Positions 10,324 to 19,206 of a stretch of 53,487 bases of DNA are shown one piece after another; position 1 is the first letter of the stretch, and the number at the start of each line of letters is the position of its first letter. The stretch is from positions 1 to 53,487 of the forward strand of contig CANQQE010000024.1 in NCBI GenBank assembly GCA_947625935.1, read 5' to 3'. This DNA comes from an uncultured Muribaculaceae bacterium. GTDB taxonomy: Bacteria > Bacteroidota > Bacteroidia > Bacteroidales > Muribaculaceae. The position numbers and the translations under genes are program-made. The notes below the pieces were generated by a model, which saw only the letters and a program-made list of their open reading frames with translations, did no database searches and was not told the DNA's origin.

Positions 10324-12360
10324 TCAATCACCCATGGTGCGCAGCAGCTCGTCGTTGTCTGACGTGCGTTCCATGCGGTCTTTGATGAACTCCATAGACT
10401 CGATTGAATTGCGGTCTGACAGGAAGCGGCGCAGAATCCACATACGGTTGAGCGTCTCCTTGCGCAGCAACAAGTCGTCGCGGCGCGTGCTTGAAGCCAT
10501 GATGTCGACGGCGGGGAATATGCGCTTGTTTGACAGCTTGCGGTCGAGCTGCAGCTCCATGTTGCCCGTGCCCTTGAACTCCTCGAAAATCACTTCGTCC
10601 ATCTTCGAGCTCGTCTCGGTCAGGGCAGTGGCGATTATTGTCAGAGAGCCGCCGTTCTCGATGTTGCGCGCTGCGCCAAAGAAGCGTTTGGGCTTCTGAA
10701 GGGCGTTGGCGTCGACGCCACCCGACAGAATCTTGCCCGATGCCGGCTGAGCCGTGTTGTAGGCGCGTGCGAGGCGTGTGATCGAGTCGAGAAGGATTAC
10801 CACGTCATGGCCGCACTCGACCATTCGCTTGGCCTTCTCAAGTACAATGCTCGCTATCTTCACATGGCGGTCGGCGGGTTCGTCGAAAGTCGATGCGATG
10901 ACTTCGGCGTTGACGCTGCGGCTCATGTCGGTCACCTCCTCGGGACGCTCGTCGATGAGCAATATCATGATATATGTCTCGGGGTGGTTCTCGGCGATGG
11001 CGTTGGCTATATCTTTGAGCAATATGGTCTTACCTGTCTTTGGCGGCGCCACGATCAGTCCGCGCTGCCCTTTGCCTATGGGGGAGAACATATCGACCAC
11101 GCGTGTCGACAGGTTGCAGGTGCGGCCGCTTGTGAGGTCAAATTTCTCGTCGGGGAAAAGCGGGGTGAGATGCTCAAACGGCACTCGGTCGCGGATGAAC
11201 TCGGGAGAGCGGCCGTTGACCTTGGTCACGGTGCTCATCGGGAAATATTTGTCGCCCTCTTTCGGAGGCCTGATGGTGCATTCCACCACGTCGCCCGTGC
11301 GCAGGCCGTTGGCCTTGATCTGCGACTGGGTGACATAGATGTCGTCGGGCGACGGAAGATAGTTGTAGTCGCTCGAACGCAGGAACCCATACCCCTCGGG
11401 CATTATCTCAAGCACGCCCGACGCTTCAAGCAGGCCGTCGAAGTTATATTGCGGGGTGGCCGGCTGAGGCTGGCGTTGGGGTTGCTGCTGTTGCTGGTTT
11501 TTGTTTTTCTTTTTCTTCCCTTGCTGTTGTTGCTGCGGAATCTGCGGCTGCTGTTTTTCCGCTCCCGGTTCACCTATGATTATAGGAGCAGTCGCGGCTG
11601 CAATCGCGGCTGCTGCCGCGGCCTCCTCCTTCTCGCGTTGCGAGCGGGGCACAAACCGTTGTCCGCCGCTGCGGGGGAAGAACATACCCAATGATGAATC
11701 TTTGCTTGGACGGAAGTCCCGCTTTTGAGGCGCAGGCGGGCCGTCGGGCAAATTTTCGCGGCCCTTCTCTGCGGGAGCCTCGGCGGTGAGGTCGGCCTCG
11801 TTTCGCAGAGGGGGGAGAAGCGTCATTTCATCGCCGGGGTGCGGTTGCTCTGCCTGAGTGTCGTTTGTCGCGCTTGGTGCCGTATGGTCGACGGGAGTCT
11901 CAGCCTCGGCGGGTGTGCCGGCGGCTTGTTGCTCTTGTTCGGCTGTGCGCTTTGGCGGCCGTCCCCGACGGGTGGCCGGTTTTGCCGGTGCGGCCGGCGC
12001 ATTCTCGTCGGCGGGTGCTTCAGCTTCGGCGGGTTTTGTTGTCTCGCCCGCTTCCTGTGGCGTTTGATCCTGAGCGGCTGTGCGTTTTGACGGACGGCCG
12101 CGGCGAGGTTGAGCGGGGGTTTCCTCCTGTTGTGGCTGTTGCTGTGGAGCCTCGGCTTGTTTTTCGCGCTTGGCTCGCGGCTGACGGACATTAGCTTTCT
12201 TCTCGGCTGCTGATGCCGCATGGTCTATCGCCTGTTGATCAAGTATGCGATAGATGAGTTCATCTTTTTGAGTGGGATCGACTTTCTTCAATCCCATGGA
12301 TTCCGCAATCGTTTTGAGCTCTGTGTCGCTCATTGCGTTGAGGTCAGAAATGTTGTACAT
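10324..12360 (-). CDS. rho: Transcription termination factor Rho
   Basis: 678 residues. Residues 1-45 are the Rho N-terminal SAP-like domain ([20 protein letters not shown]). Residues about 50-300 are low-complexity, rich in Pro, Ala, Gln and basic residues, with repeated GRP(S/P)KRTA motifs and long Gln runs; this insertion is usual for Bacteroidota Rho and makes the protein much longer than the 419 residues of E. coli Rho. Residues about 305-385 are the cold-shock RNA-binding domain ([13 protein letters not shown]). The ATPase core follows, with Walker A APPKTGKT (K444), Walker [11 protein letters not shown] and the Q/R loop region. Hexameric RNA helicase that ends transcription in the cytoplasm. 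It has a long leader (about 210 bases), so own-transcript attenuation is possible. Confidence 0.98.
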
Positions 12361-12664: not shown

Positions 12665-14122
12665 TTATACAGCTTTGGGGAGGGTAAACATAAATTCGAG
12701 GCCGCCCCCCTTGCGATTGTCGACTGTTATGCTGCCTCCGAGCGTGATGATGGTGTTCTTGACAATGGGCAGACCCAGCCCGGTCCCCCCCGCCTTACGC
12801 GAGCGGCCGGCATCGACGCGGAAGAAGCGGTCAAACAGATGGGGCAGATAACGGTCTTCGACTCCGATGCCGTTGTCGTAGAACGAGAATGTGTAGAAAC
12901 GGTCTGATTCTTTAACTAATTTTATCCCCACTTCTGTGCCTTGTGAGTATGCGGCGGCGTTTTTAGTGAGGTTGAGCAGTGCGCCGCTCAGTAGTGAGGC
13001 GTTGCCCCTGATTTCGCAATCGGCCGGTATGTCATAGACGAATCTCATTTTTCCTGATGCGCCTGATTCTTTGATTTCGTCGGCAAGCGTGAAGATAAAT
13101 TCGTGGAAGTCGATGTTTTCCACCGGGATGCTCTCGTGGGCTTCCTCAAGGCGCGTTATGGTTGAGAGGTCGTTCATCATCAAGCACAGACGGTCTACGT
13201 TGGCCTGGGCTTTGGTCAGGAAGTGGATGCGCTGCTCCTCGGGCATATCGGGGTTTTCGATTACGGAATCGAGATAGCCTTTGATTATCCCTATGGGCGT
13301 TTTAAGTTCGTGGTTGATGTTGTTGGTCAGCACTTTTTTCAACTCGGCCTTGTCTTTTGTCGCTTTCAGGGCCAGACGGTGTTCGCATTCCAGCTTGTTT
13401 TGGTCATGGATGCTCTTGTTGAATATGTTGACGAGGTGTGTGGCTATTTCGCCAAGCTCATCGTTAGGGAATCGTTTCCACGGGGTGAACTCGGTGTTGC
13501 TGGCCGCGTGTTTGGCTAAGTCGCGTAGCTGTCTTATCGTGTATCCGAGATAACGTGTCGAGAAATATGCTATGAAAGTCATAGCCACAGCTATACCCAG
13601 AAATATCAGGAGCATGTCTGAGTCAGTCTTCAGCGCGTCGACGATTGTTACGTTATAGGGCAATGCCGTCATGACCTTCACACTCCCGTCATCGCTCATC
13701 TTGGCCGAATAGAAAAACAGGTCTTCGTTGCTCACGCTGTTCAGGTTGTTGTCGGAGTGGATTTCGCGGCTTATCCCCTGTTTGTTGTCGCGGGTTATGT
13801 CGATGTTCGGCAAAGGCAGACCTATGTTATATAGGAGCTTGCCGGTGCTGGTGTCGTAGACTGACAGACGGATGTCATCATAGAAATCGCTGCCGAAATA
13901 ATCGCGCACGAATCCCATGAACGGCATCGGGTAAAAGTCAGTTGAATAAGCCTTGATTATGCGGGCGTTGATCAGTTCAAGCTGCGTACGGAGGATGTCG
14001 GCGCGGATAGCTTTCTCGCGCCTGACCTGAAAGTAAAACAGTGAAATGACAAGTATCCACAGCAGGGCGGCGAGAGGTATGAACAACCGCCACTGGTAAC
14101 TAAGTCGTCTCTTTAAAACCAT
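12665..14122 (-). CDS. Membrane sensor histidine kinase
   Basis: 485 residues. Transmembrane segment 1 at about residues 12-30, a periplasmic sensor region to about 170, transmembrane segment 2 at about 172-192, then a HAMP-like linker (LGYTIRQLRDLAKHA) and a HisKA domain with NINHELKTP, phospho-acceptor H271. The HATPase domain has the N box (LLNLTKNAAAY), G1 (YDNGIGV), F box (LFDRFFRVD) and G2 (GGTGLGLPI). Class I kinase. It overlaps the response-regulator gene by 23 bases, so the two are coupled. The arrangement and sequence type resemble RprX/RprY of Bacteroides; this naming is a guess from family resemblance. Signal sensed is unknown. Confidence 0.93.
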   Translation of the reverse strand: MVLKRRLSYQWRLFIPLAALLWILVISLFYFQVRREKAIRADILRTQLELINARIIKAYSTDFYPMPFMGFVRDYFGSDFYDDIRLSVYDTSTGKLLYNIGLPLPNIDITRDNKQGISREIHSDNNLNSVSNEDLFFYSAKMSDDGSVKVMTALPYNVTIVDALKTDSDMLLIFLGIAVAMTFIAYFSTRYLGYTIRQLRDLAKHAASNTEFTPWKRFPNDELGEIATHLVNIFNKSIHDQNKLECEHRLALKATKDKAELKKVLTNNINHELKTPIGIIKGYLDSVIENPDMPEEQRIHFLTKAQANVDRLCLMMNDLSTITRLEEAHESIPVENIDFHEFIFTLADEIKESGASGKMRFVYDIPADCEIRGNASLLSGALLNLTKNAAAYSQGTEVGIKLVKESDRFYTFSFYDNGIGVEDRYLPHLFDRFFRVDAGRSRKAGGTGLGLPIVKNTIITLGGSITVDNRKGGGLEFMFTLPKAV

Positions 14123-14810
14123 AACCGAAACCTAAACGAGTGACGATGTTGGCTCCGTATTCTCCCAATTTCTTGCGAAGCCGGGTGATGTTGGTGTCGA
14201 TTGTCCGGTTGGTGACAACCACGTCGCCCGACCACACTTGGCGTATGATTTCCTCGCGGGAGTAGATGCGGTTGCGGTGGGTTAGGAAAAACAGCAGTAT
14301 GTCAAATTCGGTGCGTGTCAGGCCGACAGGCTCCCCTTTGAGGTAGCAAGCCTTGCCGTTGCGGTCTATGCGCAGGGTCTTGAATGTGATGTCCGGTTCG
14401 TATGAGCCAATCGACTTGTTGTATTCGATTTGTTGGGCTGCCTGTGAGCGGCGGAGCACGGCGCGCACGCGAGCGAGCACCACGCCGATTACGAACGGCT
14501 TGGTTATATAGTCGTCGCTACCCATGTTCAGGCCCATGACCATGTCATCCTCGTCGCTTAGAGCGGAACAGAATATAATCGGGGTGTTCTCTGTCGCAGC
14601 CTCGTTTTTAACGCGCTTGGCAAAATCGAAGCCACTCAGGCGGTCCATCATTATATCGACGATGAACAGCGAGTAAATGGCCAGATCCATTGTCAGAGCC
14701 TCTTCGGCACTGTAGGCGCAATCGACTTCGTAGCCCTCTTTTTCGAGATTATATTTGAGTATCTCGCATACCGATTCTTCGTCGTCGATAACTAAAATCT
14801 TGATTCTCAT
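14100..14810 (-). CDS. OmpR/PhoB-family response regulator
   Basis: 236 residues. Receiver domain (1-120) with acidic pair D9/D10, phospho-acceptor D52 in FIVDIMMD, conserved Ser/Thr (FCSAL) and Lys (YITKPF). C-terminal winged-helix Trans_reg_C domain (about 135-232): LTRTEFDILLFFLTHRNRIY, SREEIIRQVW, NRTIDTNITRLRKKLGE. It is transcribed first and overlaps the kinase gene, forming a two-gene unit. The promoter is probably the TAATTTTG at 14852-14845. RprY-like by general resemblance; target genes cannot be told from this window. Confidence 0.93.
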   Translation of the reverse strand: MRIKILVIDDEESVCEILKYNLEKEGYEVDCAYSAEEALTMDLAIYSLFIVDIMMDRLSGFDFAKRVKNEAATENTPIIFCSALSDEDDMVMGLNMGSDDYITKPFVIGVVLARVRAVLRRSQAAQQIEYNKSIGSYEPDITFKTLRIDRNGKACYLKGEPVGLTRTEFDILLFFLTHRNRIYSREEIIRQVWSGDVVVTNRTIDTNITRLRKKLGEYGANIVTRLGFGYGFKETT

Positions 14811-14844
14811 ATATGGTATTATGATGGTTCTTTTTTAGAGTACC

Positions 14845-14852
14845 CAAAATTA
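14845..14852 (-). promoter_or_regulatory. -7 box of the two-component operon
   Basis: Minus-strand TAATTTTG, 35 bases before the regulator ATG. No clear TTTG at -33 is seen, so the promoter may need an activator. Confidence 0.45.
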
Positions 14853-14945
14853 ATAATAAATGACGGGATATTGGGTTAAAGAATGTTAATAACCACGGGC
14901 GGCGTGAACTATTGACGCCGCGCCATGTTCTAAAGCTATAATTAC

Positions 14946-14953
14946 TATATTTG
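14946..14953 (+). promoter_or_regulatory. -7 box of small-RNA copy A
   Basis: TATATTTG followed after about 7 bases by the conserved start of the short RNA. The -33 region is not a good match. Confidence 0.55.
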
Positions 14954-14959
14954 CACTGT

Positions 14960-15025
14960 GTTTTTCATGGTATTAGATTTAAGGTTAAAACAAACTGGCT
15001 GTCGTGAGACAGCCAGTTGTTTTTT
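14960..15025 (+). ncRNA. Putative short RNA, copy A (convergent pair)
   Basis: A promoter-like box, then a leader TGTGTTTTTCATGGTATTAG followed by ATTTAAGG, then a strong terminator (stem AACTGGCTGTC/GACAGCCAGTT, loop GTGA, T6). The same order and nearly the same leader occur on the opposite strand at 15168-15097. No open reading frame of note lies inside. Two independent copies sharing promoter, leader and the core GCTGTCGTGAGACAGC argue for a real small RNA of about 65 bases. It may belong to a known Bacteroidales RNA family such as the Bacteroidales-1 motif; I cannot verify that. Confidence 0.6.
14993..15025 (+). terminator. Terminator of small-RNA copy A
   Basis: 11-bp perfect stem 14993-15003 with 15008-15018, GTGA tetraloop, then GTTTTTT. 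Confidence 0.9.
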
Positions 15026-15096
15026 ATCCTTTTTGAAAAATGGTGGCCGTCGTCGGGCGCGCGTCGATTGACATCAGGAGAAATAATAAAAAGATA

Positions 15097-15128
15097 TAAA
15101 AAGAGAGCTGTCTCACGACAGCTCTCTT
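15097..15128 (-). terminator. Terminator of small-RNA copy B
   Basis: 12-bp perfect stem 15128-15117 with 15112-15101, loop of four, then TTTTT on the minus strand. Confidence 0.88.
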
Positions 15129-15168
15129 TCCTTTAAACCTTTATCTTAATCTAATACTATGAAAAACA
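15097..15168 (-). ncRNA. Putative short RNA, copy B (convergent pair)
   Basis: On the minus strand TACCTTTG (15182-15175) is followed by TGTGTTTTTCATAGTATTAG and ATTAAG, matching copy A with few changes, then an A/G-rich spacer and the stem AAGAGAGCTGTC/GACAGCTCTCTT with loop GTGA and TTTTT. The outer stem differs from copy A while the core CTGTCGTGAGACAG is kept, so the stem has changed with compensating bases. That is what a conserved structured RNA would show. Copies A and B face each other, with 71 bases between their 3' ends. Confidence 0.6.
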
Positions 15169-15174
15169 CACATG

Positions 15175-15182
15175 CAAAGGTA
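15175..15182 (-). promoter_or_regulatory. -7 box of small-RNA copy B
   Basis: Minus-strand TACCTTTG, a full match to TAnnTTTG; a CTTG 22 bases upstream (15208-15205) could serve as -33. Confidence 0.6.
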
Positions 15183-15208
15183 AGAATTATTCCCGAATCA
15201 TAAACAAG

Positions 15209-15457
15209 TTTTCGAGGGCAATTATATATAATTAAATATTATATCTCCGTTCATGCTTTGCTCTTGGAGCCGCCTGCCGGTATTAAATTGCTGTAAACCA
15301 AGCCTTATTCTGATGATTCGATATTTCATGCTTAGATGGGTTGAATTTCCGTATTTTGCATTTGTTAATATATTTTTAGCATGAGAAACAAATCAGCTTT
15401 TCTTGATTTTTTATGACGCTAATTGGCGGTGATACAACATAGTTAGGTCGATAATAT
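15209..15457. other. AT-rich intergenic stretch without visible gene
   Basis: Between small-RNA copy B and the nifJ promoter I see no reading frame, repeat or strong hairpin; the sequence is AT-rich with short TATATA runs. Confidence 0.5.
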
Positions 15458-15488
15458 TTTGCCGTTAACGATTAAATTAGTAATTTCG
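15458..15488 (+). promoter_or_regulatory. Promoter of nifJ
   Basis: TTTG at 15458-15461, 19 bp spacer, TAATTTCG at 15481-15488. The leader of about 140 bases contains CCGCGG repeats around 15503-15520. Confidence 0.65.
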
Positions 15489-15636
15489 CAGAGCGATTTT
15501 AGCCGCGGTATAGCCGCGGTGACAGAAGCTGTGGAGTCGACCGCCCAAATCATGTTTTCCGGCACGAAATCCGTTGCTTCGCACGCATATCCAGAGATTA
15601 TTAACTTTAAGTTTTTATAAAACAGATTACAACGCT

Positions 15637-18600
15637 ATGAGTAAAGAAAAGAAATTCTTGACCTGTGACGGTAATCAGGCTGCTGCGCATATTTCATATA
15701 TGTTTTCGGAGGTGGCTGCGATTTACCCCATCACACCCTCATCGACTATGGCTGAATATGTCGACGAATGGGCTGCCGCAGGACGCAAAAACATCTTCGG
15801 TGAGACCGTAATGGTGCAGGAAATGCAGTCGGAAGGCGGTGCCGCGGGTGCTGTCCACGGGTCCCTTCAGGCCGGTGCGCTGACTACCACCTACACCGCT
15901 TCGCAGGGTCTTCTCCTCATGATCCCCAATATGTATAAAATCGCGGGCGAGTTGCTCCCCTGCGTGTTCCATGTTTCGGCCCGTACGATTGCCTCTCACG
16001 CACTCAGCATCTTCGGCGATCATCAGGACGTGATGTCAGTCCGTCAGACAGGTTTCGCCATGCTGGCCGAAGGCTCTGTGCAGGAAGTCATGGATCTGGC
16101 CGGTGTCGCTCATTTGGCTACCATTAAATCGCGCGTGCCTTTTGTCAATTTCTTCGACGGATTCCGCACATCTCACGAAATCCAGAAAATCGAGACTGTC
16201 GAGGCCGATGACCTCGCTCCGCTCCTCGACCGCGAGGCTCTCGCCGACTTCCGCAACCGCGCTCTCAATCCCGAGAAACCTGTGGCCCGCGGCATGGCTG
16301 AGAACGGCGACGTATTCTTCCAGCACCGCGAGTCATGCAACGAATACTACAATGCTGTTCCCGCTATCGTCGAGGAATACATGAACAAAATCTCGGAAAT
16401 CACCGGTCGCAAATACGGCTTGTTCAACTACTACGGCGCTCCCGATGCCGACCGCGTGATTATCGCCATGGGCTCTGTGACACAAGCCGCTCAAGAGGCG
16501 ATTGACCATCTCACCGAAAAAGGTGAGAAAGTCGGTCTTGTGTCGGTTCATCTCTACCGCCCGTTCTCAGCAAAACATTTCCTCGCTGCCGTTCCCGCGA
16601 CTGCGAAACGTATCGCGGTGCTTGACCGCACAAAGGAACCGGGTGCAAACGGCGAACCGTTGTACCTTGATGTCAAAGAGTGCTTCTATGGTAAGGAAAA
16701 CGCCCCCGTCATCGTCGGTGGACGCTATGGCCTCGCTTCAAAGGATACCACTCCCGCCCAGATTCTCGCCGTTTATGAGAACCTTGCGCTTCCGATGCCG
16801 AAAGACCATTTCACCGTGGGTATCATCGACGATGTGACATTCACTTCGCTTCCTCCGAAAGAGGAGATTGCCCTTGGCGACAAGAGCACGTTTGAGGCTA
16901 AATTCTTCGGCCTCGGTGCCGACGGTACTGTGGGCGCCAACAAGAACTCTGTCAAGATTATCGGTGACAACACTAATAAATACTGTCAGGCTTACTTCGC
17001 CTACGACTCAAAGAAATCGGGCGGTTTCACCTGCTCTCACCTCCGTTTTGGCGACGCTCCCATACGTTCGACCTATCTGGTGACAACCCCCAATTTCGTG
17101 GCTTGCCACGTTCAGGCTTACCTCCATATGTACGACGTGACCCGCGGTCTGCGCGACGGCGGCACATTCCTTCTCAACACAATCTGGGAGGGTGAGGAGC
17201 TGGCCAAAAACCTGCCTGCCAAGGTTAAGAAGTACTTCGCTGACCACAACATCACCGTCTACTACATTAACGCTACCAAAATAGCTCAGGAAATCGGACT
17301 TGGCAATCGCACCAACACCATCCTGCAAAGCGCGTTCTTCCGCATCACTGAGGTTATCCCCGTTGATCTCGCTATCGAGCAGATGAAGAAATTCATCGTC
17401 AAGAGCTACGGTAAGAAAGGTCAGGATGTGGTCGACAAGAACTATGCCGCTGTTGACCGCGGCGGTGAATACCACCGTCTCGATGTTGACCCCGCATGGG
17501 CCCAGCTTACTCCCGAGGCTCCCGCCGCCAACGATGACCCCGCTTTCGTCAACAACATCGTGCGCCCCATTAACGCTCAGGACGGTGACCTTCTCAAGGT
17601 TTCCGACTTCAAGGGCATCGAGGACGGTACCTGGGAACAGGGCACTGCCGCTTATGAAAAACGCGGTGTGGCTGCATTCGTTCCACAGTGGCTCGAAGAA
17701 AACTGTATCCAGTGTAACAAGTGCGCCTACGTCTGTCCTCACGCCTCAATCCGTCCCTTCGTGCTCGATGCCGACGAAATGGCAAAAGCTCCGTTTGGCG
17801 AAGCTGACACTATCCCGGCTATCGGTAAGACTTTCGCGGGAATGCGTTTCATCCAGTCGGTTGACGTCCTTGACTGTCTCGGTTGCGGCAACTGCGTGGA
17901 TGTATGCCCCGGCAAGAAAGGCGTTAAGGCTCTTGAGATGAAGCCGCTCGAATCCCAGCTTGATGTACAGAAAGAGTGGAACTATTGTGTTAAAGAGGTC
18001 GCTTCAAAACAAGACCTCGTCGATATCAAAGCCAACGTCAAGAACAGCCAGTTCGCCACTCCGTTGTTTGAATTCTCCGGCGCTTGCTCCGGTTGCGGTG
18101 AGACTCCCTATGTCAAACTGATTACTCAGCTCTATGGCGACCACGAGATGGTAGCCAACGCCACAGGTTGCTCATCAATCTACTCCGGCTCTGTACCTTC
18201 AACTCCCTATACGACCAACCGCCGCGGTCACGGTCCCGCATGGGCCAACTCTCTGTTCGAGGACTTCTGTGAGTTCGGTTTGGGCATGACTCTCGCCAAC
18301 GACAAAATGCGCAGTCGTCTCGAGGGGTATATGAAGGCTACCCAGGAGTGCCCCAAATGCAGCGATGAAATCAAGGCTCTTGCCGCTGAATGGCTCGCTA
18401 ACAAAGATGACGCTGCCAAGACCCGCGAAATCGCCGACAAGCTCACCCCGCTTTGCGAGGCTTGCGGTTGCGACACCTGCAAGAACATCCTGTCGTTGAA
18501 ACATTACATCGTGAAACGCTCGCAATGGATTATCGGTGGCGACGGTGCGTCCTACGACATCGGTTTCGGCGGTCTCGACCATGTGCTTGCATCGGGCAAG

Positions 18601-19206
18601 AATGTCAACATCCTTGTACTCGATACCGAGGTCTACTCCAACACCGGCGGTCAGGCTTCAAAAGCTACCCCCCTCGGTGCTATAGCCAAGTTCGCGGCTT
18701 CGGGTAAACGCATCCGCAAGAAGGACCTTGGCCTTATTGCAACCACCTATGGTTACGTTTACGCCGCTCAGGTGGCCATGGGCGCCGACCAGGCACAGAC
18801 CCTCAAAGCCATCCGCGAGGCCGAGGCTTACGACGGCCCCTCGATTATCATAGCCTACGCCCCCTGTATCAACCACGGATTGAAAGCCGGCATGGGCAAG
18901 GCTCAGCAAGAGGAGGCCAACGCCGTGGCTTGCGGTTACTGGCACCTCTGGCGTTACAATCCCGCTCTCGAGGAGGAAGGCAAGAACCCGTTCTCGCTCG
19001 ATAGCAAAGAGCCTAACTGGGATGAGTTCGAGAACTTCCTCAAAGGCGAGGTGCGTTACGCCTCAGTGATGAAGCAGTATCCCGCCGAGGCTGCCGACTT
19101 GTTCGCCGCTGCCAAAGCTAACGCTAAGTGGCGTTACAACAACTATCGCCGTCTCGCTCAGCAGCAATGGGGCGTGGATCCCGAGGTCGGTAAACTTCCC
19201 GAATAA
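15637..19206 (+). CDS. nifJ: Pyruvate:ferredoxin (flavodoxin) oxidoreductase
   Basis: 1189 residues from the ATG at 15637 (MSKEKKFLTCDGN); the longer frame from 15574 adds 21 residues not found in the family. Single-chain PFOR: N-terminal pyrimidine-binding domain (AAIYPITPSSTMAE), transketolase-C-like domain, gamma domain and EKR linker, a 2x[4Fe-4S] ferredoxin domain with CIQCNKCAYVCPH and CLGCGNCVDVCPG, and a C-terminal thiamine diphosphate domain with CSGCGETPY and GDGASYDIGFGGLDH. The length is standard (about 1,170-1,200). It oxidises pyruvate to acetyl-CoA and CO2 and reduces ferredoxin in the cytoplasm; oxygen-sensitive and central to anaerobic energy metabolism. A terminator separates it from rubrerythrin. 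Confidence 0.98.
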   Translation: MSKEKKFLTCDGNQAAAHISYMFSEVAAIYPITPSSTMAEYVDEWAAAGRKNIFGETVMVQEMQSEGGAAGAVHGSLQAGALTTTYTASQGLLLMIPNMYKIAGELLPCVFHVSARTIASHALSIFGDHQDVMSVRQTGFAMLAEGSVQEVMDLAGVAHLATIKSRVPFVNFFDGFRTSHEIQKIETVEADDLAPLLDREALADFRNRALNPEKPVARGMAENGDVFFQHRESCNEYYNAVPAIVEEYMNKISEITGRKYGLFNYYGAPDADRVIIAMGSVTQAAQEAIDHLTEKGEKVGLVSVHLYRPFSAKHFLAAVPATAKRIAVLDRTKEPGANGEPLYLDVKECFYGKENAPVIVGGRYGLASKDTTPAQILAVYENLALPMPKDHFTVGIIDDVTFTSLPPKEEIALGDKSTFEAKFFGLGADGTVGANKNSVKIIGDNTNKYCQAYFAYDSKKSGGFTCSHLRFGDAPIRSTYLVTTPNFVACHVQAYLHMYDVTRGLRDGGTFLLNTIWEGEELAKNLPAKVKKYFADHNITVYYINATKIAQEIGLGNRTNTILQSAFFRITEVIPVDLAIEQMKKFIVKSYGKKGQDVVDKNYAAVDRGGEYHRLDVDPAWAQLTPEAPAANDDPAFVNNIVRPINAQDGDLLKVSDFKGIEDGTWEQGTAAYEKRGVAAFVPQWLEENCIQCNKCAYVCPHASIRPFVLDADEMAKAPFGEADTIPAIGKTFAGMRFIQSVDVLDCLGCGNCVDVCPGKKGVKALEMKPLESQLDVQKEWNYCVKEVASKQDLVDIKANVKNSQFATPLFEFSGACSGCGETPYVKLITQLYGDHEMVANATGCSSIYSGSVPSTPYTTNRRGHGPAWANSLFEDFCEFGLGMTLANDKMRSRLEGYMKATQECPKCSDEIKALAAEWLANKDDAAKTREIADKLTPLCEACGCDTCKNILSLKHYIVKRSQWIIGGDGASYDIGFGGLDHVLASGKNVNILVLDTEVYSNTGGQASKATPLGAIAKFAASGKRIRKKDLGLIATTYGYVYAAQVAMGADQAQTLKAIREAEAYDGPSIIIAYAPCINHGLKAGMGKAQQEEANAVACGYWHLWRYNPALEEEGKNPFSLDSKEPNWDEFENFLKGEVRYASVMKQYPAEAADLFAAAKANAKWRYNNYRRLAQQQWGVDPEVGKLPE

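Follow-up and report, generated by a model that had tools for sequence, protein, structure and literature searches.

The two RNA genes discussed here are copies of FopS, a small RNA that silences sugar-uptake genes in gut Bacteroides. Its leader acts in Bacteroides thetaiotaomicron as a seed that pairs near susC start codons and blocks the translation of SusC mRNA, and positions 1-21 of FopS formed the query for target prediction (Ruttiger et al. 2025, PMC11697453). In the same organism, FopS is bound by RbpB, an RRM protein, which lifts the repression that FopS exerts. Conservation of FopS is described there within the Bacteroidaceae (section 8), and a phage copy has already been noted (PMC11697453).

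In the window, by which we mean the whole stretch of 53,487 nucleotides that was analysed, direct reading reveals two short units in convergent orientation, flanked by a two-component system on one side and by nifJ on the other. The response regulator (14100-14810, Pfam Response_reg and Trans_reg_C) and the histidine kinase (12665-14122, HATPase_c and HisKA) are encoded on the minus strand, and nifJ, the gene of a pyruvate:ferredoxin oxidoreductase, is found on the plus strand at 15637-19206 (TIGR02176, 1934.9 bits, cut-off 911); its mechanically called reading frame starts upstream at TTG 15574, with the ATG at 15637. The gap between the response regulator and this ATG (14810 to 15637) measures 826 bases and no ORF of at least 90 aa lies wholly within it. 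The NifJ protein of the window is 90% identical to that of one Muribaculaceae-labelled MAG (the genome of L042) and 87% to that of another (L087), as compared to 80-81% for Bacteroides ihuae, Mediterranea, Barnesiella and a MAG of Parabacteroides. An uncultured "Porphyromonadaceae", however, reaches 88% and a MAG labelled "Odoribacter" 84%, while other MAGs under the label "Muribaculaceae" give 83% and 80%, and a Paramuribaculum record matches at 48% only. The host thus probably, though not with certainty, belongs to the Muribaculaceae.

Each unit begins with a Bacteroidota-type -7 promoter box, TATATTTG at 14946..14953 on the plus strand and TACCTTTG at 15175..15182 on the minus strand, which is followed by the leader TGTGTTTTTCATGGTATTAG (14957-14976, plus) or TGTGTTTTTCATAGTATTAG (15170-15151, minus). 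Both leaders begin GTGTTTTTCAT and share the form GTGTTTTTCAT(G/A)GTATTAGATT, and the start sequence expected at the transcript 5' end is GTGTTTTT. When up to three mismatches are allowed, the window contains the leader exactly two times, and none of 100 shuffles contains it. FopS positions 1-21 with the seed, whose role is described in PMC11697453, correspond to 14958..14978 in the plus copy, where they are near-invariant in alignments and unpaired in the predicted fold, and to 15149..15169 in the minus copy, where position 12 is A and not G and weak local pairing is predicted. Downstream of the leader stands an intrinsic terminator, the hairpin of which has a GTGA loop, at 14993-15018 with a T run to 15025 in the plus copy (terminator scan, fold and covariation) and at 15131-15098 with a subsequent T run in the minus copy (terminator scan and fold). 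The hairpin arms are complementary to 88% over 17 nt and to 100% over 13 nt, respectively, and both units fold into structures more stable than those of 200 out of 200 shuffles (z -4.6 and -5.4). The terminator scan, with a total of three hits against 0.7 expected in shuffles, recovered both hairpins and found the one of the plus copy terminator-like on the minus strand as well. Facing units with box, leader, hairpin and T run, as claimed by the sequence-only reading, are indeed present on both strands.

A covariance search of Rfam, which that reading had proposed with Bacteroidales-1 RNA among the candidates, identifies the family as FopS (RF04319). The plus copy (14958..15026, 74.7 bits, gathering threshold 56) is the only gathering-level match to Rfam across the whole window; Bacteroidales-1 RNA has no match of this level anywhere in it. 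The minus copy (15094..15169) remains 4.2 bits under gathering with 51.8 bits, at E-values of 1.4e-6 in an 801-base search and 1.5e-6 in the whole genome. This shortfall accompanies about five extra bases, a difference that the sequence-only reading had overlooked and that the alignment of the genome's own copies places between the leader and the AAGG block, and despite its score the minus copy shares the architecture of the plus copy: in both, the seed leader stands at the 5' end, a single terminator hairpin follows, and the -7 element TAnnTTTG, the one promoter element considered, is at the expected place. A whole-genome search with RF04319 gave seven matches at E<=1, four of them above gathering. 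The leaders of the seven copies align closely, with differences that affect the first bases (C33 copy), position 12 (window minus copy and C31), position 14 (C31) and the number of T residues (C53 and C31). The C53 copy has a diverged hairpin. It is located at 11322-11397 of its contig, after a DUF4494 gene that matches the phage family phrog_19572 and with a tRNA-Met gene and a C5 DNA methylase directly downstream, surroundings that resemble those of a mobile element.

The same place in the window is also matched by other Bacteroides small RNAs, GibS (RF04182; 59.1 and 52.1 bits) and BTnc231 (RF04180; 46.2 and 44.3 bits), but these scores are far under the respective gathering thresholds of 115 and 80.4. 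Moreover, each of these matches spans both units, the GibS alignments omitting 63 bases, and therefore rests mainly on the shared leader. GibS indeed carries the same R1 seed at its 5' end as FopS according to PMC11697453, but unlike the units of the window it is 145 nt long and has an R2 seed (PMC11697453 and PMC7366714). That the units are GibS, BTnc231 or another such RNA and not FopS is therefore hardly credible, and we regard them with high confidence as paralogous trans-acting FopS genes in convergent orientation.

The conservation of the unit was followed with a family model that was built from 22 copies and run over 100 loci, 80 of which had been chosen by an exact leader match and the rest as best-scoring matches, so that the conservation of the leader is partly given by construction. 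The model found 109 matches, at least one per locus, which agrees with the many copies with conserved leader and covarying stem that had been anticipated, the leader again being partly selected for. In 107 distinct rows, 92.3% of the hairpin cells are paired as compared to 63.9% after shuffling, both sides have changed in 209 cells (52.6 after shuffling), and covariation scores 0.735 as compared to 0.186, with slid controls reaching 0.212 at most. For none of these three measures did any of 500 shuffles reach the value of the real hairpin; the alignment was fitted to the tested structure, and related sequences inflate this test. Changes on both sides are seen in all eight hairpin pairs, but also in 128 of the 500 shuffles, and the outermost pair is weak, being unpaired in 46 of 106 rows. 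A mechanical search that makes no use of the model recovered the hairpin in 98 of 105 copies. Of these 105 copies, 101 have the box TAnnTTTG no more than 22 nt ahead of their leader, as compared to 0.9% in random stretches of the same loci, and all 109 matches start at model position 1 and thus in the leader. The outcome that the sequence-only reading had named as refuting, copies that are nothing but terminators lacking the leader, is therefore not what was observed, although this argument is partly circular owing to the 80 loci fetched by the leader.

These data also bear on the view that the units are plain bidirectional terminators, which would shield the response regulator and nifJ and have no RNA function. 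Their hairpins are good intrinsic terminators, and that of the plus copy resembles one on the minus strand too, but both neighbours are transcribed away from them, the response regulator on the minus strand from 14810 downward and nifJ on the plus strand from 15637. The promoter box and the leader, needless for a terminator, accompany the hairpins in many Bacteroidales records, even if leader conservation partly reflects how the loci were selected, and we think that this view is very improbable. Judged from sequence, the identification as functional small RNAs is supported, but such RNAs have been described before (PMC11697453). The sequence-only reading had proposed a functional small RNA or a decoy transcript; the former agrees with the Rfam assignment, the seven genomic matches and the covarying hairpin with its conserved leader, while the latter has found no support.

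The leader pattern was found in at least 119 stretches of named genomes, and the titles among the matches listed include Bacteroides, Prevotella, Muribaculaceae, Paramuribaculum, Barnesiella, Dysgonomonas, Parabacteroides, Odoribacter and Paludibacteraceae. Two FopS copies are also present in a MAG record under the label Clostridium sp. (JAMPGY010000006.1), which may be mislabelled or contaminated. With the family model and strict filters, 28 out of 159 genomes from the order have a match at E<=1e-6, and FopS-like matches at E<=0.001 occur in 23 of 31 relatives including all 19 of the own family (the own genome plus G001-G018, where G004 is without a match above the cut-off). As leader matches are found outside the Bacteroidaceae, of which the available parts of PMC11697453 speak, FopS is more widely distributed than stated there, and this recently described family is extended beyond the group named. 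The text of that paper does not contain the string "Muribac", a term search of PMC12632263 gave no relevant passage, and among the papers listed by searches of an open-access library, none was seen to treat FopS in Muribaculaceae or hosts that lack RRM proteins.

The position next to nifJ is not conserved in a sample of eight nifJ regions from relatives. The response regulator was found in none of the eight (six extend about 1.5 kb upstream, two end at the contig border after less than 200 bases), and only one (G015) has a FopS-like leader upstream of the gene, at a distance of about 1 kb. A further leader match in such a region (L190), with three edits, was taken as noise. FopS-like stretches or leaders are also present on mobile records, comprising five phages, 19 records of a plasmid collection (one of 1.77 Mb) and 19 viral contigs. 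The induced Bacteroides phage BX-TP2 (PQ571285.1), for example, has an unannotated FopS-like stretch at 962-1042, close to the end of the genome. Phages can use SusC-type proteins as receptors, so that a phage-borne FopS could act on the supply of the receptor.

As to the control of FopS, RRM_1 (PF00076) has no match in the own genome, which is 99.99% complete. As RRM_1 covers RRM proteins in general, its absence implies that there is no RbpB; judged in this way, the known class of antagonists, RRM_1 proteins such as RbpB, appears absent in the host, and the control of FopS there probably differs from that in B. thetaiotaomicron. Within the family, RRM_1 was detected in two of 80 genomes and in none of those 65 with a completeness of 90% or more; the two positive genomes, G007 (86% complete) and G041 (82%), may have real matches or contamination. 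Of the 19 genomes of the family in which FopS-like matches were found, 18 lack RRM_1 matches and one (G007) has one, and Bacteroides ihuae as positive control gives the match. In the order, RRM_1 was found in 110 of 159 genomes. The order-wide scans for FopS and RRM_1 requested the same draw of 159, and the genomes are identical among the rows listed. The 28 FopS-positive genomes comprise 16 with and 12 without RRM_1, as compared to 94 with and 37 without among the 131 FopS-negative ones, so that FopS and RRM_1 are not positively associated (Fisher two-sided p 0.17, n=159, with genomes within a family not being independent). The 12 genomes that have FopS and no RRM_1 match fall in eight families (f1, f22, f41, f68, f87, f108, f109 and f111). 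A tentative and rather doubtful idea is that FopS has become uncoupled from RRM proteins in this family, such that another RNA-binding protein or an RNA-based antagonist sets its activity and its targets have maybe shifted away from SusC. In the own genome, such an RNA-based antagonist could possibly be the antisense read-through of the convergent pair. The near-complete family genomes that contain FopS-like copies and in which no RRM_1 was found offer a natural experiment on whether FopS depends on an RRM protein or has one as its opponent in every case.

For transcription, repression and targets of the window copies, we infer the following course. Each copy would be transcribed from its own sigma-ABfr-type promoter to an RNA of about 70 nt, whose 5' end would be a single-stranded seed complementary to ...CUAAUACCAUGAAAAACAC, a start-codon context; 3' of the seed, the intrinsic terminator hairpin would then end the RNA, and the several similar copies may add dosage. 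The own genome encodes four SusC proteins above the TIGR04056 cut-off among 18 matches in all. Pairing with the leader was calculated for 318 gene starts, which were taken as the first ATG of each long ORF and came from the window, from 20 sampled stretches and from the four SusC loci, with mRNA accessibility ignored. The four SusC starts ranked 9th, 53rd, 105th and 137th. A rank sum as low as this has a chance of 0.03 when all genes are considered and of 0.11 within the 71 that start with MK, which is at most a hint of targeting. At -16 kcal/mol or below, the real leader pairs with 11 genes, 30 shuffled leaders with 6.6 on average and 21 at maximum, and one reversed leader with two, so that the real leader exceeds the reversed one but stays within the range of the shuffled ones. 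The anti-seed pattern with up to two mismatches has 12 matches, seven of which are the FopS copies, and the remaining five compare with three for the reversed control.

The best of the 318 starts, C3:52190 (-22.3 kcal/mol), is the closest start-codon complement outside FopS and belongs to a secreted protein of about 375 aa (C3:52198-53322), which has a weak Reg_prop match below cut-off and whose start region would make it a candidate target. Its duplex lies within the range of the best matches of 30 shuffled leaders (-16.3 to -23.8), and neither this gene nor any other is claimed as a target. The own genome has two paralogs of the protein, of which one (C9, -6.9) lacks the site and the second is located at C3:108133; in relatives, the protein has weak matches only, in 14 of 40 (best E 1.6e-8).

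The convergent arrangement with a spacing of 67 nt is an unusual addition to what is known of FopS. With an exact leader allowing one free position, a pair of this spacing was found in one of 298 family genomes, the own genome only, and in no stretch of genome_contigs, a set to which the own genome perhaps does not belong. In a partial set of 46 match rows, mostly from contigs with more than one match, 13 of 15 pairs of FopS neighbours less than 2.5 kb apart are in tandem, and only one further pair is convergent, with 1.5 kb between its copies. In Dysgonomonas sp. 521, four copies follow each other in tandem within 2 kb (L053, 3330-5181), and one locus (L084) has a divergent pair about 1 kb apart. 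We think that the convergence probably arose as an accident of copy movement. Alternatively, the pair could be a self-limiting module, in which leaky terminators permit read-through and the extended RNA acts as a sponge against the other leader, an idea close to the earlier decoy proposal. An RNA extended in this way would pair with the whole 31-nt leader without a mismatch (-43.3 and -45.5 kcal/mol), but terminators stand between the copies, one of them terminator-like in both directions, and the rarity of the spacing in the family genomes and in genome_contigs shows that the arrangement is not conserved, so that such a module is very improbable. The two RNAs themselves are predicted to pair with each other not much more strongly than alone, with -54.3 kcal/mol for the plus-minus duplex as compared to about -48 for the two separately, and with -51.2 (plus) and -58.2 kcal/mol (minus) for pairing of each with itself.

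As compared to FopS of B. thetaiotaomicron (RF04319, BTncRNA_FopS), the units of the window thus have the same 5' seed leader, the same TAnnTTTG box, a single terminator hairpin and a length of about 70 nt; as there, several paralogs occur per genome, and both copies of the window are intergenic. Relative to the literature found, the additions are the occurrence of FopS in a broader set of bacteria, family genomes that mostly have no detected RRM partner, and the unusual convergent pair. Unlike in B. thetaiotaomicron, the two copies converge, the minus copy has additional bases after its leader, and the host, probably a member of the Muribaculaceae, in which RRM_1 was not detected, has four SusC genes above cut-off for seven FopS matches.
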